Shown here piece by piece: positions 17,165 to 24,099 of a stretch of 64,000 nucleotides of DNA. Under the pieces are notes generated by a model. The model had not been told where the DNA came from. It saw nothing but the letters and a program-made list of their open reading frames with translations, and ran no database searches. Numbering within the stretch: the first letter of the stretch is position 1; each line of letters begins with the position of its first letter. Position numbers and translations under genes: made by a program. Source of the DNA: Novosphingobium sp. G106 (GTDB taxonomy: Bacteria; Pseudomonadota; Alphaproteobacteria; Sphingomonadales; Sphingomonadaceae); assembly GCF_019075875.1 (NCBI RefSeq), contig NZ_JAHOOZ010000001.1, positions 372,001 to 436,000 on the forward strand, in the 5' to 3' direction.

Positions 17165-18090
17165 CCATCCGTCACCAGCCGGTGCTCGCGGCCTGGGGCG
17201 CCGGCGTCGATTCGACCGCCATGATCATCGAACTGGTGGCTCGGGGAAGTCCGCCCGATGTCGTCCTCATGGCCGACACGGGAAGCGAGCGGCCCGAGAC
17301 CGACGCTTTCGTGCCTATTTTCCGCGAATGGATGGACCGGCACGGCGTCGAGAATCACATCGTTCGCTATGAGCCGCGGCGCTTCAAGCATTGGCCGCCC
17401 TATCATTCGCTGCTCGAGAACCTCCTGACCAATGGAACGCTGCCCTCCATCAACTTCGGACGGCATTCCTGCTCGCAAAAGCGGAAAATCGCGCCCCAGG
17501 ATGCCTGGGCCGAGCTATGGCCAGCCGCCCAAGCGGCCTGGGCACGCGGGGATCGCGTCGTGAAGCTGATCGGCTATGATTGCTCGACTGCGGACAATCG
17601 GCGCTATGCGCACCAAGAAGGGCATTGCGATCCACGCTTCGCGTTTCGCTATCCTCTGCGCGAGTGGGGCTGGGACGCGCGCTGACTGCATCGCCCGAAT
17701 AGACGCCGAAGGCCTGCCCGTCCCGGTCAAATCGTCCTGCTTCTTCTGCGCTGGCATGAAACCCGGCGAGGTCCGATCGCTGCCGCCCGCCTATCTTCGG
17801 CTGATCGTGCTGGTCGCGGCGAGGGCGGCTTCCAGGCTTCGCACCGTCGAAGGTCTCTGGCGAAAATCAGTCCAGGGCAGGGGGGCGCTGCGGCCCGGCC
17901 GGGCTCCATGACCGCTTTCATCCGCGAGCAAGGCTTGCTGGTGACGGCGGAGATTGACGAATTCGTGGCGCAGGCGCCGGTGAATCTGTTGGCGTTCCAG
18001 GAGGGAGCCGCTCGTGTCCCACTCGGTGCGCGCGATTCCATGCGCAGTTGGCTCGCCCAGTTCGAGGCTGGTTGGAATGGCTTCGATTGA
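17161..18090 (+). CDS. PP-loop ATPase, PAPS-reductase-like (frame broken in at least two places)
   Basis: Three adjacent frames make one protein of about 309 residues. The first (17161-17685) has the PP-loop AAWGAGVDSTAMI and HSCSQKRKI. The second continues from ADCIARIDAEGLPVPVKSSCFFCAGMK (a Cys-x2-Cys pair), and the third from MTAFIREQGLL to the stop at 18090. The joins need loss of one G near 17666-17674 and two bases (or gain of one) at the six-G run 17880-17885. The family binds ATP and acts on sulphur or nucleotides; plasmid-borne relatives are common but uncharacterised. Sequence error is the likely cause of the breaks. Confidence 0.72.
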
Positions 18091-18093
18091 TTT

Positions 18094-18118
18094 TGGGATA
18101 TGAGTATGGCATATCCCA
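18094..18118. promoter_or_regulatory. Inverted-repeat operator of the second toxin-antitoxin pair
   Basis: Nine-base arms TGGGATATG (18094-18102) and CATATCCCA (18110-18118) with a seven-base spacer, 20 bp before the antitoxin ATG and within an AT-rich promoter-like stretch. Likely bound by the antitoxin for autorepression. Confidence 0.75.
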
Positions 18119-18137
18119 TATTATTGGAGGATATTCT

Positions 18138-18383
18138 ATGGCGTTGTACGTCAAGGATGACGAGGTCGATCGACTTGCCGATCGCGTCGCCACACTGCAC
18201 CGGGTCAGCAAGACGGAGGCCGTCCGGCGTGCCTTGATGCATGAACTCGAGCGCGAGGGTGTGGCGAGCCCCCTGGTGGAGCGCGGCATGGCATTTGTCC
18301 GGGCCTTGCGCAAACGCGCGGGCGAGGGGGCGGGCCAGCCGGCGGACAAGGCGTTCATCGATAGTCTTTACAGCGACAACTGA
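18138..18383 (+). CDS. VapB-type ribbon-helix-helix-like antitoxin
   Basis: 81 residues from ATG 18138, with GGAGG seven bases upstream. The N-terminus MALYVKDDEVDRLADRVA and KTEAVRRALMHELER match the short transcription-factor class found with PIN toxins. The C-terminal tail is charged and likely binds the toxin. Its stop overlaps the toxin ATG by one base (TGATG). An inverted repeat just upstream is a probable binding site. Confidence 0.85.
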   Translation: MALYVKDDEVDRLADRVATLHRVSKTEAVRRALMHELEREGVASPLVERGMAFVRALRKRAGEGAGQPADKAFIDSLYSDN

Positions 18384-18778
18384 TGTTCATCGATGCTTCC
18401 GCTTTGACGGCGATCCTCGCCGACGAGAAGGATGGGCCCGAACTTCTGGCGCGAATGGACAAGAGCCGCATTCGCATAACGTCGCCCTTGGCGACCTGGG
18501 AGACCACGGTCGCGGTCGCACGCATTTTGGGATTGTCGATCAAGGACGCCGAACAGGCGGTGGAAGAGTTTCTCGCGCTCGCCGCCATTCGCGTGGTCGC
18601 CGTCGATCCCTCCGTTCGTGCCTTGGCAATCGAGGCCTTCGATCGATATGGCAAATCGCGGCATCCGGCCGCGCTCAATTTCGGCGATTGTTTCGCCTAC
18701 GCTTGTGCTCGCCATGCTGGCCTGCCCTTGCTCTACAAGGGCGATGACTTTCCGCAGACGGATATTGAAACGGCGTAG
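18383..18778 (+). CDS. PIN-domain toxin (VapC-like)
   Basis: 131 residues with the full PIN acidic set: FIDASAL near residue 4, WETTVAVAR near 40, NFGDCFAYACARHAG near 99 and YKGDDFPQTDI near the C-terminus. A VapC-type ribonuclease whose free form blocks translation. Translationally coupled to the antitoxin. The two PIN operons of this window are not obvious copies of each other and have different operators. Confidence 0.88.
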   Translation: MFIDASALTAILADEKDGPELLARMDKSRIRITSPLATWETTVAVARILGLSIKDAEQAVEEFLALAAIRVVAVDPSVRALAIEAFDRYGKSRHPAALNFGDCFAYACARHAGLPLLYKGDDFPQTDIETA

Positions 18779-19008: not shown

Positions 19009-19440
19009 TCAGCCGACGCGGCTCATCGCGTCGCGGGCGATCCGGGCCATATCCGCGCGGTCCATCATCCGCTTCGAATGATCGTACAAATGCAGCGCCG
19101 CCGAGCGGGGAGAGAGCTGCTTCACCTCGTCATAGAGAATGTGCGTGTAGGCGCCGGCGCGGCCCAGAAGCTCGGTGAGCTCGGTCCGCGCTTCGCTGCC
19201 ATCGTCCTCGATACCGCAGGCAACTTCGGCCCACAGGTGCGATACCGCGTCGGCCAGGGCCTCCGCATCATAGTAGCCGCTGTCGAGACTTTCACCGAGC
19301 GAGAGCGCCGCGAGTCGCGCGTCGATATCGTTCGCATCGGGGTCGTTGACGACATCGAGGAGCGGCAGGTTGTAGTTATAGGTGGCAAGCCAGGCGCGCA
19401 TGTCGGGAAGGTCCTTGGGGTCGAGGCGTGATAGGAACAT
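19009..19440 (-). CDS. Conserved hypothetical helical protein
   Basis: 143 residues, soluble and acidic, mostly helical (DMRAWLATYNYNLPLLDVVND, AEALADAVSHLWAEVACGIE, KRMMDRADMARIARDAMSRV). No enzymatic motif is seen. It is the first of several minus-strand genes in an otherwise plus-strand block and lies beyond the remnant that borders the large nuclease gene. No clear ribosome-binding site. Function unknown. Confidence 0.5.
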   Translation of the reverse strand: MFLSRLDPKDLPDMRAWLATYNYNLPLLDVVNDPDANDIDARLAALSLGESLDSGYYDAEALADAVSHLWAEVACGIEDDGSEARTELTELLGRAGAYTHILYDEVKQLSPRSAALHLYDHSKRMMDRADMARIARDAMSRVG

Positions 19441-19611
19441 AAGTCGAACGAGCGGGCAAGCGGAAAGCGCAGGAAGGACGGAAGGCGGCTGCCCGCTGGC
19501 GCGGGCACCGCGGCTCTCGTCTCCGCTACGCTTCGACCGCGCTCCGCCTGCGCCGGTTTTCGGCCTTGGCGGGCTTCGATCCGCTGCCGGGTGCGGCGCA
19601 GGTTGTCGAAC

Positions 19612-19738
19612 CGGATCAGCGCTTGCTGCGGCTGCACGGAGTCGCGCGTCGGCGCTGGACCGAGATCGACCGCGAGCTGACGCAGCGCGCGCATGGCGCC
19701 GAGGCGCAGTGCACAGTGGCTAGCGCTATTTGTCCCTT
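19612..19738 (-). pseudogene. Truncated, diverged copy of the small gene at 23917-24099
   Basis: On the minus strand this region encodes LRLGAMRALRQLAVDLG, closely matching MRLGAMRALRQFAADLE of the intact small gene 4.3 kb away. The DNA is also alignable over about 100 bp (shared blocks such as GATCAGCGCTTGC and CGCGTCGGCGCTG). The copy lacks the first 30 or so residues, being cut off where the large nuclease-TPR gene ends. It marks one edge of the inserted segment. Confidence 0.6.
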
Positions 19739-22700
19739 TCACCCTTGCCGCTGCGCGCGCTGCCTCTTTCCGTTCTTGGCCGACTTTAGCGGCCGTGCAG
19801 TCCGTAGCTCTCTGAGAACTTTCTCGGACGAACGGATCTCTTCGAGATCATAGAAGTGCCCCCCGATCCAGTCAGCAAGATAATCGTACGCATAGCGGGC
19901 GAGTATGTGTCCGCGCGTAGATTGTTTGTTCAGGTCGGCATCGAGAACATGGAGCACAGCCTTCCAGTCGACGGGGCGGGAGCGCACCAGCTGTTCCAAC
20001 AATCGCCCCAAGGCGCGGCCCTTTTGCCAATGGGGGAGTTTGGTCAGCCAGATTCGGCGCATCAGTTGGAGGGTCACGCCGATGTGCGATCGCATGTCAG
20101 CTTTAGCGCCGCCCATGAACCGAATAGCCGCCTCATACAGACCAAAAGCGCGTGGATCGTCGAGCTCCAACATGCCGATCAGTATCGAAGCATCGAGCGC
20201 GAGATGATCATGAAGCATCGCGCCGAGCTTGCCGACAGCAACCAGATATTCGCGCTCCGTCAGGACGTCTTCGGTGCTAAGGACGCCCAGCACGACCTGG
20301 AGCCAGGCACCGCCTACAACCTTATTCTGCGCGGCGAACTGGCGCAGGTTCAGATCTTCCGAGACAATGATAAGGTCCTGGTCGAGCGCGACATGAATGG
20401 AATCGAACAGCTGCTGGGCGACGACGGCACCCATCGCCTTCTCGATCCGGTAATCGATAATCCCATCGGCCGGGAGGATTTCGCAATTGGCTTCGAGGTC
20501 GGCGATGACCCCGTTTACCATCGCGAGTTGGGCCTCGGTCTCCTCGGGCGTGTGGATCCTGCGCCAAGGCTGATCTCCGTCGAAGCCCATCGTCATATAC
20601 TCGCGGCCGCGATTGGATTCGATCTTGGCGCGCAGCTCGAGAATGTCGTCGAAGCTCGATTGCGCTATGCACAGCCGCCCGAAATAGGCCTTCGCCGCGA
20701 TCAGATGGCCTAGCTCGCGCAGCTGCCAGACAGTCAGCGTGTCGAGGACGATGCCCTTGCCACGCGCAGCCCGGACAAACTGCGCAGCCTCGATGCGCTC
20801 GTGTTCCACGCCGACGCACGTCCGCAGGTTGGTTCCCGTCGATTGTAGATGCTCGGCCAAGGCCAAAACGGACTTGTTGGCCATGGCCGCTACCAAGGCC
20901 AAAGGCACGGCTAGATCGGAATATGTCGTCGCTAAGACGTCGTTCTTGTCCTGGAATTCGCGGACGACGTCGAGTACCGGCTGCACATCGCCGTCCTTCA
21001 TGTTCATCTCGAACATTGAGGTAGCATCGGGAAAACGCGCGGCATGGCTCGCCATGATGTCGTGGAGCAGCCAGATGTATTTGTGCTTGAGTTCGCGGAC
21101 CCGATAGCGCCGATCGCCGCCGAATTCTGCAGGCATGATCAGGTCATCGCCCACGGCTTTCCCCTGCAAAGCCGCAGCGAGCGGATGATCTGGCGCGAAA
21201 GTCTCTATACCGTCACGTTGGACCGCGTCGATGACGCCCGCGACGTCCCGGGTACCATCGAGACCCTCGAGACTGAACCAGAAGTCCTTCTGCGCAGGTC
21301 CGGCTTTTCCGATGGGCGCGGGCAAGAACTCGTCGAAGAAGATGAGGCCGGGATAGGAGGCCATGACCTCCTCGTCCTGACGATTGGCTGTTGCAATCCG
21401 GTATCCCAGCCTTAGCGCCCGCTCGGCCTCTCCCGCGCGGCGATGGTTATGCGCGAGCCGCATCAAATCGCCTGCCGCCCCTTGAACGGCGTCGTCGTCA
21501 ACGTCCTTCAGGAGGGCTGCCGCATCTGCGGCGCGGTTCCCGCGCATCAGCGTGCTGGCGAGCAGCAACATGGCCCGCAGATCGGTCGGATCGGCGGCGA
21601 TCGCCGCACGCAGATAGCGTTCGGCGGCCTTGAGATCGCCGCGATTGTGCTCGGCCGCTCCCGCTAGGCGTGCATAGCGCGGGAGGGCGATGACATCGGG
21701 GGCGAGCTCTCTGAAAAACGGTGCGGTCCTCGGCCGGGTACTGGCGTTCGCGAAAGCAAAGCACAGCCACGCGAGCGGGTCGGATGGGCGGCTGAGCGCA
21801 ACACGGCCATCGAGCACCTCGATAACGTCGTCCCAGGCATCGCGAAACACCGAAAGCTGCGCAAACATCACGCGGTCCGAGAAGCTCGTGTCTTCATCGA
21901 TCAGCGACTTCGCCTTGGCGGCGGTGGCAGCGGCTTCCTTCGGTCGGTGGTCCCGAAAGACCTCCGCGACCCCAATATGTGCCGCGATACCCAGCGGCCA
22001 CGCTTCGAGGAGACTCTCGACTTCCTGATCGAGATCGAAATCTGGGGCGGCCTCCCGGCGAGCGCGGAAGACGAGAACGTCGTATAATTGCCGTTCGGCC
22101 GGCGCTAGGGCTTCGCGCGTTTCTGGCCTTCGTGCCTCGAGGGCACCCTTCCAGTCATGGGAATTCGACAATGCCACCATCAGCGGCAGGTTGTTTGATA
22201 TGTCCTGCGGAGCACGCCGAAGGAGGCGAGCCGCTTCGTCGAACTCATCGCGGTCGATGGCCACCCAGGCGGCCGTCGCGAACGTCTCGGCTGCTGTGCT
22301 TCCCAGTGCCAGCATCTGGTCACTGACTGCCTTTGCGCTGTCGAGATCACCAAGCGCCCGGTAGGCCGTGATGAGGTTGTAGGCGATCATGATCCAATTG
22401 GACTCGGTCGCGTTCTCGAAGTGGCGCACCGCCTCCCAGTGACGCTGCAGCAACTCGGCGCCCTGTTGAAGCTTGGTGCTGCGCGCTTCGGTTAGCGCCC
22501 CGAACCTTCCAAGAACTCCCATGTTGAGCGCTTCGTCAACGAGGGCATCTCCGGCCGACCGCAACGCATTGCCGTCTTCCGGAAACCGCTCAAGGGTCTC
22601 CCCAGCAAGGCTCCACCAGCTACCCGGCGCGCCTTTCTCGCGCAGGTAGCTGATCCGATGGATGCGCACGGCCAGATCGTCGAGGAGGGCCTCGGGGACG

Positions 22701-23713
22701 ATTGCCATCGGATCGTGCGGCTCGGACGACATGGAGGCCGCCTGGAATGACAACGCGGCGGCACCGGCGTTGGAAGGGTCTTCGTGCAGTACCTCTTTTG
22801 CAAATGCCCAGGCCTCGGCGATTTTCCCTGTCAGCAGTAGGGCCAGAATGTTGTTCGCCCTGACCTTGGGATCGCCCGGATTGAGCGCATAGGCTTCAGC
22901 CAGGAGATCGGCCGCATCTGTCTCATCACCAAGCTTGAGGCGGGAAAAGGCGATGTTCGACTTTACGCGTGCTCGGATCGCGGGAGCGCTCGTTTCGTTC
23001 AATGTGGCGTCGAGCTTTTCGAGGAGCTCGAGCGCGGTCCGCGGTTTTCCGGCATTCATCAAGTCGCGATATTGGTCGACCTGGAGATCGAGGTGCTGGT
23101 CGAACGCGCTGCGCGCGGTATCGAGCGGCGTCACGCTGATGCTCGCAGCGAGAACCTTCAGTTCCTGCAGAACGCTCTCGCCCTGGGCCTCGATGCGCGA
23201 CTGCCCCTCCAAGGTCTCAATGCCCAATCTGACGAGTTTGTCGGTCGACGCGCTGTAGTCGGGATCGAAGGCGGCAAGTGCCTTGGCATCGGCGCGTATC
23301 TTGTCCTGGAGCGTGTCCCAACCCCAGACCTGGATATCGATCTTGCGCCCCGCAACTGCCTGTTCCTGACTCAGTTCGATGGCCAAGAGATCGAGCACCG
23401 GCTCATCGGTAGCAGTCGTGACAATGTAGAACTCGGTAAGCAGCGGTTGAACGGTGAGCGCCCGTGCGACCTCCGCGCACACTATTGCCTTGGTCAGCTT
23501 GGCGCCGCGCGTGATGAGCTTGCATTGGATGCCGACGGGTTGGTTCGGATCCCGATCACGGCGACCTATCAGGTCGAGCCCGGACTGTTCTTTGCCGCGC
23601 GTGCCATACAATTTGACGTTGGGGTCGTTGAGATGGGCCGCGAACACAGGCACGCAACTTCGCTCGAAGACCTTTTCGTCGGTCGGGATCCCAATAATCG
23701 TCGAGGAACTCAC
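19739..23713 (-). CDS. Mrr-like nuclease / TPR-like repeat / PIN-like domain protein, 1324 residues
   Basis: The start is GTG 23713; no better start in frame was found. Residues about 8-150 form a restriction-endonuclease-like domain: GTRGKEQSGLDLIG (Asp47), then VGIQCK (Gln63, Lys65), a D-x15-QxK arrangement of the PD-(D/E)xK/Mrr kind, and VWGWDTLQDKI. Residues about 190-850 are helical repeats resembling TPRs (ADLLAEAYALNPGDPKVRAN, AERYLRAAIAADPTDLRAMLLL). Residues about 987-1140 look PIN-like: IVLDTLTVW (Asp991), SSFDDILEL, LFDSIHVAL (Asp1104), IIVSEDLNLR (Asp1120). No NTPase motif was found. The gene sits alone, antisense to the backbone, between repeats. Two nuclease-like domains with a repeat scaffold suggest a single-gene immune or abortive system; that is inference. 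Confidence 0.75.
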   Translation of the reverse strand: MSSSTIIGIPTDEKVFERSCVPVFAAHLNDPNVKLYGTRGKEQSGLDLIGRRDRDPNQPVGIQCKLITRGAKLTKAIVCAEVARALTVQPLLTEFYIVTTATDEPVLDLLAIELSQEQAVAGRKIDIQVWGWDTLQDKIRADAKALAAFDPDYSASTDKLVRLGIETLEGQSRIEAQGESVLQELKVLAASISVTPLDTARSAFDQHLDLQVDQYRDLMNAGKPRTALELLEKLDATLNETSAPAIRARVKSNIAFSRLKLGDETDAADLLAEAYALNPGDPKVRANNILALLLTGKIAEAWAFAKEVLHEDPSNAGAAALSFQAASMSSEPHDPMAIVPEALLDDLAVRIHRISYLREKGAPGSWWSLAGETLERFPEDGNALRSAGDALVDEALNMGVLGRFGALTEARSTKLQQGAELLQRHWEAVRHFENATESNWIMIAYNLITAYRALGDLDSAKAVSDQMLALGSTAAETFATAAWVAIDRDEFDEAARLLRRAPQDISNNLPLMVALSNSHDWKGALEARRPETREALAPAERQLYDVLVFRARREAAPDFDLDQEVESLLEAWPLGIAAHIGVAEVFRDHRPKEAAATAAKAKSLIDEDTSFSDRVMFAQLSVFRDAWDDVIEVLDGRVALSRPSDPLAWLCFAFANASTRPRTAPFFRELAPDVIALPRYARLAGAAEHNRGDLKAAERYLRAAIAADPTDLRAMLLLASTLMRGNRAADAAALLKDVDDDAVQGAAGDLMRLAHNHRRAGEAERALRLGYRIATANRQDEEVMASYPGLIFFDEFLPAPIGKAGPAQKDFWFSLEGLDGTRDVAGVIDAVQRDGIETFAPDHPLAAALQGKAVGDDLIMPAEFGGDRRYRVRELKHKYIWLLHDIMASHAARFPDATSMFEMNMKDGDVQPVLDVVREFQDKNDVLATTYSDLAVPLALVAAMANKSVLALAEHLQSTGTNLRTCVGVEHERIEAAQFVRAARGKGIVLDTLTVWQLRELGHLIAAKAYFGRLCIAQSSFDDILELRAKIESNRGREYMTMGFDGDQPWRRIHTPEETEAQLAMVNGVIADLEANCEILPADGIIDYRIEKAMGAVVAQQLFDSIHVALDQDLIIVSEDLNLRQFAAQNKVVGGAWLQVVLGVLSTEDVLTEREYLVAVGKLGAMLHDHLALDASILIGMLELDDPRAFGLYEAAIRFMGGAKADMRSHIGVTLQLMRRIWLTKLPHWQKGRALGRLLEQLVRSRPVDWKAVLHVLDADLNKQSTRGHILARYAYDYLADWIGGHFYDLEEIRSSEKVLRELRTARPLKSAKNGKRQRAQRQG

Positions 23714-23916
23714 TGGTCCATTCCGCCTGCTTCTGCGAACTCATGCAACCGCTGGCGCCAGTTCGTCCTTCGTCACACGTTCTCCTATCGTTCCTTCTCG
23801 CCGATACGGGGGACCGGCGCAATCTGCGGTGGCAGCGAGAACGGCTATTCGCACTGGTTTATGCGCAGGAAATAGCGGCTGCCCGCTACCCCGGGCGGCG
23901 CGGTCAGGAAAGCCGA

Positions 23917-24099
23917 TCAGCGCTTGCGACGGACGCGTGGGGTCACCGCGTCGGCGCTGACTTCGAGATCGGCGGCGAACTGGCGCAGTGCCCGCATGGC
24001 GCCCAAGCGCATCATCCCGTCGCCCTCGGCGTAGTGTTCACGGACCTTGGCGCGCTTGCGCGCGAGGTCCGCGATGGCCCTGACCGTCTCTGCGTCCAT
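23917..24099 (-). CDS. Small conserved protein (intact copy of the flanking repeat gene)
   Basis: 60 residues, a basic helical protein (ETVRAIADLARKRAKVREHYAEG, RLGAMRALRQFAADLEV, ending VRRKR). A truncated relative is found at 19612-19738, so this is the intact member of the pair flanking the nuclease-TPR gene. Function unknown; its basic tail could bind nucleic acid. Confidence 0.5.
   Translation of the reverse strand: MDAETVRAIADLARKRAKVREHYAEGDGMMRLGAMRALRQFAADLEVSADAVTPRVRRKR

Follow-up and report, generated by a model that had tools for sequence, protein, structure and literature searches.

Domain Architecture of the Window Gene

The window analyzed here, a 64,000-nucleotide stretch of Novosphingobium sp. 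G106 (contig NZ_JAHOOZ010000001.1, positions 372,001 to 436,000), carries on its minus strand a large gene for a protein with a predicted nuclease domain near each end and a helical scaffold between them. The open reading frame (ORF) at 19739..23713 is a genuine protein-coding gene, and its coordinates, strand and length are exactly those of a preceding sequence-only reading. It occurs once in the 7.23 Mb genome, and its G+C content (~0.62) is near that of the flanking stretches. The same reading had divided the protein into three parts, an N-terminal nuclease, about 650 residues of helical repeats and a C-terminal PIN-like domain. The nucleases and the repeats stand, and two further parts had been overlooked, namely a GreA/B-C domain (residues ~797-880) and a helical C-terminal domain. 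The absence of an NTPase domain holds in the Pfam scan of the protein. The parts are as follows.

19739..23713, minus strand: whole window gene, 1324 amino acids (aa), GTG start; Mrr-like restriction endonuclease (REase), tetratricopeptide repeats (TPR), GreA/B-C, PIN, C-terminal helical domain
23264..23713, minus strand: Mrr-like PD-(D/E)xK nuclease, residues 1-150, with E17, G45-x-D47 and Q63-x-K65 (motif conservation, Mrr_cat profiles, predicted model)
21344..23107, minus strand: TPR superhelix, residues 203-790 (Pfam TPR_19, 54.7 bits; model and PDB matches)
21074..21325, minus strand: GreA/GreB C-terminal (FKBP-like) domain, residues 797-880 (fold and profile)
20255..20779, minus strand: PIN domain of family PF20698, residues 979-1153, with D991, D1022, D1104 and D1120
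19796..20254, minus strand: all-helical conserved C-terminal domain, residues 1154-1306 (predicted model; the conserved block accompanies the core in most relatives scanned)

The N-terminal part of the protein matches 94 database proteins and the C-terminal part 58, the latter among the best 7993 candidates, scored because they share most words with the query. Alignment A1 contains 50 of the proteins P0001-P0104, picked for spread of identity, with many left out, including short or partial ones; alignments A2 and A3 (77 and 76 rows) were picked in the same way. The nearest of the 50 rows is 75% identical to the window protein. Both active sites are kept across the 50 rows: G45, D47, Q63 and K65 are present in every one, E17 in 45, and D47, Q63 and K65, the nuclease pattern first noticed from sequence, are again invariant in the 76-row alignment. 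The PIN-like acidic set D991, D1104 and D1120, also noticed then, is kept in 50, 45 and 43 of the 50 rows, respectively, the other seven rows having E at position 1120, and a fourth position that had not been listed, D1022, is kept in 46. On this conservation, the two nuclease sites look selected, beyond what chance matches to a motif would yield.

The N-terminal domain resembles Mrr-type restriction nucleases in its E...GxD...QxK motif and in the Mrr_cat profiles found in most aligned N-termini: of 31, 29 match Mrr_cat_2 and 22 match Mrr_cat at E<=1, the best values being 8.2e-6 and 2.6e-4, respectively. The window copy by itself matches Mrr_cat_2 at E 0.042 only, under the Pfam cut-off. Its predicted model has an alpha-beta order of strands and helices compatible with an REase; TPR matches took up the fold searches with residues 1-790, which thus do not confirm the REase fold. 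When the REase profile was run against PDB sequences, no relative of known structure came up, the single row being a chance match (E 0.46). Unlike Mrr-type nucleases, the window protein fuses the REase to TPRs, GreA/B-C and PIN, and no DNA-recognition domain was identified in it.

The helical repeats are TPRs and form the largest part of the protein, with a length of ~590 residues (~203-790), somewhat less than first estimated. The domain that follows retains GreB-like sequence (profile, E 1.5e-7), and PF01272 matches 28 of 35 members at E<=1. It shares fold and profile with the C-terminal FKBP-like domain of GreA, GreB and Gfh1, and differs from these factors in that no N-terminal coiled coil precedes it and that it sits within a 1324-aa protein, adjoining a PIN nuclease.

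The PIN domain matches PF20698 with 95 bits (cut-off 27.8). When the PIN profile was compared with the PDB, the leading rows were PPR proteins matched over short repeats, and RNase P rows had E >=0.17; the assignment therefore rests on PF20698 and the fold match. A profile or structure check of both ends, which the sequence-only reading had proposed, thus bears out the PIN domain, and at the N-terminus gives Mrr_cat profiles in most relatives with a fold search taken up by the TPRs. VapC, other PIN RNases and HARP RNase P share the PIN fold, and the window family has four conserved acidic positions. By contrast with VapC and other PIN RNases, the PIN here is one domain of a larger protein, and no cognate antitoxin gene of the type II VapBC kind adjoins the ORF, the bordering ORFs being backbone genes. 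In DefensePredictor DS-3 (PMC13092281), too, defence relies on a single protein with a PIN RNase, but its PIN is divided between the two termini, and the passages on DS-3 mention no Gre domain.

Membership in a Predicted Conflict System

A TPR-GreA/B-C-PIN conflict system has been predicted by Kaur, Iyer, Burroughs and Aravind (eLife 2021;10:e70394; PMC8195603, section 7). According to that section, the gene is mostly standalone, and its N-terminal effector is replaceable, REase being among the effectors named. The system is predicted to target RNA polymerase that viral DNA has hijacked: docking on the polymerase is proposed, the PIN domain would cut the transcript, and the N-terminal effector would add an apoptotic second line.

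The window gene is a further member of this predicted system and of Pfam family PF20698. It has a PF20698-type PIN, a GreA/B-C domain between TPR and PIN, an N-terminal TPR array, an REase as N-terminal effector and a standalone gene. All testable sequence features of the description in section 7 are present, the constant core, its order, the effector and the standalone status being identical, and the window copy shows no difference in kind from what is described there. The sequence-only reading had known of no characterized system with this order. Experimental characterization was indeed not found in the open-access literature (bioRxiv preprints and most subscription papers lie outside it, and papers using only 'GreA/B-C' spellings could be missed), but the order itself had been predicted in the section cited and is covered by PF20698. 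A novel architecture was accordingly rejected.

Among the 10 genes above the PF20698 cut-off in a search of the phylum, the REase block is present in nine (the window gene and eight others) and absent from that of locus L058 (loci of relatives carry L numbers). Two further ORFs, L050:8995-9600 and L029:9995-10600, consist of the REase only (201 aa, ~61% identical to the window protein), the TPR-Gre-PIN core being gone. A separate standalone REase family was considered for them and rejected, as both have the same RES/Xre-DUF2235 surroundings as L068, in which the full gene comes next (L068:9001-12942); for the same reason they are read as remnants after core loss.

Distribution and Genomic Neighborhoods

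The gene family is sparse. Of 99 genomes from the same taxonomic family, 3 have a member, and 14 of 398 genomes of the phylum have a match, 10 of these above the cut-off; both counts include the genome of the window. Matches occur in 25 plasmid records, in 11 of which a single place covers at least 80% of the protein. A phage-borne gene was considered and rejected, there being no match among 50,697 phage records; of 43 candidate stretches from the viral contigs, 1 held a relative. In the tree, the window gene groups among sphingomonad relatives, and near-identical genes are found in a Ponticaulis metagenome-assembled genome (L017) and in Aurantiacibacter (L027), as expected of a transferred gene. 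In the contig of L019, titled Streptomyces, the gene lies beside an ScpB-like gene common to alphaproteobacterial plasmid loci; due to possible assembly contamination, no transfer across phyla is claimed from it.

A survey of homolog neighborhoods for defence islands, suggested from the sequence, found many defence-related families. At E<=1e-8, 91 PADLOC families were matched among 93 neighbor proteins of nine loci and 193 among 88 further neighbors (picked from 202), compared with 8 among 134 proteins of nine control stretches on the same contigs; these tallies count families and not proteins, and the contrast is large despite inflation by single methyltransferases and helicases. Neighbor and control genes were called by a crude in-house gene caller, and a tenth control stretch, L086, was left out because its own genome holds only a weak match. 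Ten neighbors scanned singly include an Eco57I-type methylase, a UvrD helicase and an AAA protein.

Twelve regions were fetched from the 25 plasmid records, and five of them have annotated defence-type genes near the match: a helicase, an AAA ATPase and an exonuclease in the first; SIR2, an ATP-dependent endonuclease and a UvrD helicase in the second; an AAA ATPase with a helicase, an SduA domain and SLATT in the third; TIR and cyclase-ThiF-Mov34 in the fourth; and SIR2 and DUF262 in the fifth. A sixth region has CHAT, MazF and YhaV near the match. The helicase-endonuclease pairs are, in our own reading, Gabija-like.

The Cargo Slot

Around the gene, the plus strand of the window carries a plasmid-type backbone, with a ParB-like protein, a Strawberry-notch helicase, two SLOG/DUF2493 proteins, DUF736 and, by similarity, DUF932, in the gene order of conjugative Novosphingobium resinovorum plasmids (annotation and DNA matches). 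Three minus-strand features delimit the slot.

19009..19440, minus strand: backbone gene of 143 aa that borders the cargo slot on the left; both N. resinovorum plasmids have a copy at 52% identity
23917..24099, minus strand: small backbone gene of 60 aa that borders the slot on the right; its counterparts in the two N. resinovorum plasmids are 46.7% and 45% identical
19572..19708, minus strand: diverged partial second copy of the small-gene region 23877-24011, from which the cargo gene separates it (local DNA alignment; direct repeat D1)

Because two plasmids that lack the window gene have both border ORFs, these belong to the backbone. In the two plasmids they enclose a Phd/VapC pair in place of the window gene. 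The local DNA alignment of the partial copy scores 129, against 78 for the best of 200 shuffles. As the same borders enclose Phd/VapC elsewhere, and part of the 60-aa gene region recurs in diverged form beyond the ORF, the slot is exchangeable, with a partial duplication at its border, and the window gene is its cargo. Related backbone proteins adjoin homologs in 4 of 51 loci (L006, L008, L009, L010) and in 0 of 10 control loci, so that this plasmid type is a recurring carrier. Immediately left of the slot, at 18048-18778 on the plus strand, lies a separate VapBC pair (Rv0623-like antitoxin, PIN toxin).

Operon Partners in Relatives

The claim that the gene has no partner holds for the window copy, whose adjacent minus-strand ORFs are backbone, and fails for some relatives, which have operon partners.

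L016:8080-10004, L017:6769-8690, L027:8080-10001, L054:4871-6795 and L026:3009-5005: Mrr_cat + AbiEi_2 gene, then AbiEii-like gene
L070:8260-8979 and L071:8260-8979: HEPN/Abi_2-like gene, 239 aa, 9 bases upstream of the core gene and preceded by a winged-helix gene

The AbiEii-like gene directly precedes the core gene in L016 (the contig of L053), L017, L027 and L054, its stop overlapping the start of the core gene by 4 bases in L016 and L054 and by 1 base in L017 and L027. Pfam was run on the L016 copy of the pair, and the other loci were assigned by similarity. In L016, the first gene scores 29.8 bits on Mrr_cat and 24.1 bits on AbiEi_2 (cut-off 21 each), and the AbiEii-like protein 20.3 bits on AbiEii, under the cut-off of 22.5. 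Both genes recur in L017, L027 and L054 at 66-90% identity. L026 has a diverged pair (29-31% identity) with a 9-base gap to the core gene, L019 has the pair ~3 kb downstream, and L018 has an end piece only. No title on such a pairing stood among the 12 of 85 matches listed when the literature was searched for AbiEi together with Mrr or PIN.

L070 and L071 are two different conjugative plasmids, and their HEPN/Abi_2-like genes are 87% identical to each other; the L070 copy scores 25.5 bits on Abi_2 (cut-off 25.6), and L021 holds the end piece of such a gene. In L068, RES/Xre and then DUF2235 lie ahead of the core gene; L014 has RES/Xre alone, DUF2235 being absent, and in L075 a RES gene overlaps the start of the core gene by 1 base. 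These partners (AbiEi/AbiEii-like, HEPN/Abi_2-like, RES, DUF2235) are where some relatives differ from the predicted system, as section 7 of PMC8195603 does not mention them; they are the freshest part of the analysis and an additional testable lead.

Proposed Mechanism and Alternatives

On balance, the window gene probably encodes a single-gene mobile immune protein, the REase subtype of the TPR-GreA/B-C-PIN conflict system, with a proposed polymerase-docking mechanism. The immune-protein reading is based on the domain order, the conserved active sites, the patchy, island-like distribution and the cargo position on a plasmid-type backbone. The genomic context supports a defence role through the patchy spread, the defence-rich neighborhoods and the exchangeable slot.

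RNA polymerase docking and both nuclease activities are what we infer from the domains. The GreA/B-C domain would dock at the secondary-channel rim of RNA polymerase, as GreA, GreB or Gfh1 do, and the adjoining PIN domain would cleave the transcript of a hijacked or stalled polymerase. The TPR superhelix may restrain the Mrr-like nuclease until an invader is sensed; once freed, the nuclease would cut DNA, either the transcribed template or, as an abortive response, the cell's own chromosome. If true, this would be an immune protein attacking at the RNA polymerase secondary channel, and a compact, single and intact gene with both active sites conserved is a convenient test case for the 2021 prediction. 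The sequence-only reading had proposed a two-nuclease sensor-effector. Its nuclease domains (the REase fold not confirmed by fold search), TPR scaffold and defence role are retained, and due to the GreA/B-C domain the likely mechanism changes from TPR sensing with two nucleases to probable polymerase docking. The reading is therefore partly supported: its observation is confirmed, and its interpretation got the kind of system right, misjudged its novelty and left its anatomy incomplete.

An extension of polymerase docking to transcription-coupled restriction seems rather unlikely. The predicted protein would ride the polymerase by its Gre-type domain, the PIN cutting the transcript and the Mrr-like nuclease the transcribed DNA. 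In one clade, the translationally coupled AbiEi/AbiEii-like pair, whose AbiEi-like member carries a fused second Mrr_cat, would make this a three-gene system whose polymerase-bound sensor releases a nucleotidyltransferase toxin.

Several observations weigh against a polymerase-docking immune protein. The Ser-Pro loop of GreB is mostly His-Pro or His-Ala in this family (H843 in 41, P844 in 25 and A844 in 12 of the 50 rows), so that the domain may bind polymerase differently or no longer at all. No Gre coiled coil lies ahead of the GreA/B-C domain, and the PIN would therefore need another route to the transcript; a changed docking mode, or none at all, is possible. The window protein is not recognized by PADLOC, and Foldseek with the C-terminal model gave no match at E<=0.001. 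As to the neighborhoods, one methyltransferase is probably behind many of the 91 families and GajB models probably behind many of the 193, while mad3 and AriA turn up in control stretches too. The other 6 of the 12 plasmid regions contain no recognized annotated anti-phage system, some having toxin-antitoxin or methylase genes, and the ten neighbors scanned singly also include a transposase, a carboxypeptidase, an amidohydrolase and an NAD(P)H-hydrate dehydratase.

The altered loop also favors a polymerase-independent two-nuclease sensor-effector, a possible reading to which a low probability is given. Here the TPRs would recognize a phage component and release the Mrr-like DNase and the PIN RNase, and the GreA/B-C domain would be merely structural or protein-binding. 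FKBP-like folds bind many partners, and the dominance of TPRs in the protein fits such a role; the kept GreB-like sequence, on the other hand, suggests that the partner of the domain has been retained.

The plasmid setting raises the alternative that the gene serves conflict between mobile elements, or stabilization of its element, rather than anti-phage defence, guarding its carrier against rival plasmids or punishing its loss. The slot that holds Phd/VapC in the N. resinovorum plasmids, the backbone relatives beside homologs and absent from controls, the 25 plasmid records and the resemblance of some partners to AbiE, a type IV toxin-antitoxin system, all agree with this. It is nevertheless held to be unlikely, as the window copy has no antitoxin partner and several relatives lie near annotated anti-phage systems, although phage defence and plasmid defence are not mutually exclusive. 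A housekeeping factor for transcript or DNA quality control is highly improbable: GreA/B-C and PIN do occur in housekeeping proteins, but a single-copy gene on a plasmid-type backbone, absent from most close relatives, patchy in family and phylum, and near-identical in the Ponticaulis and Aurantiacibacter genomes, speaks against it.

Variant Relatives

The copies in L009, L012 and L026 are split into two ORFs, which a costly defence gene or an assembly error may explain. L056:7835-12214 encodes a 1459-aa relative with ~170 additional residues ahead of the REase. L064:1729-7515 and L065 encode proteins of more than 1900 aa whose PF20698 match is under the cut-off; the L064 protein, when scanned, was seen to begin with a bacterial Death-like domain (bDLD3) and to match HTH_upst_double_PIN below the threshold.

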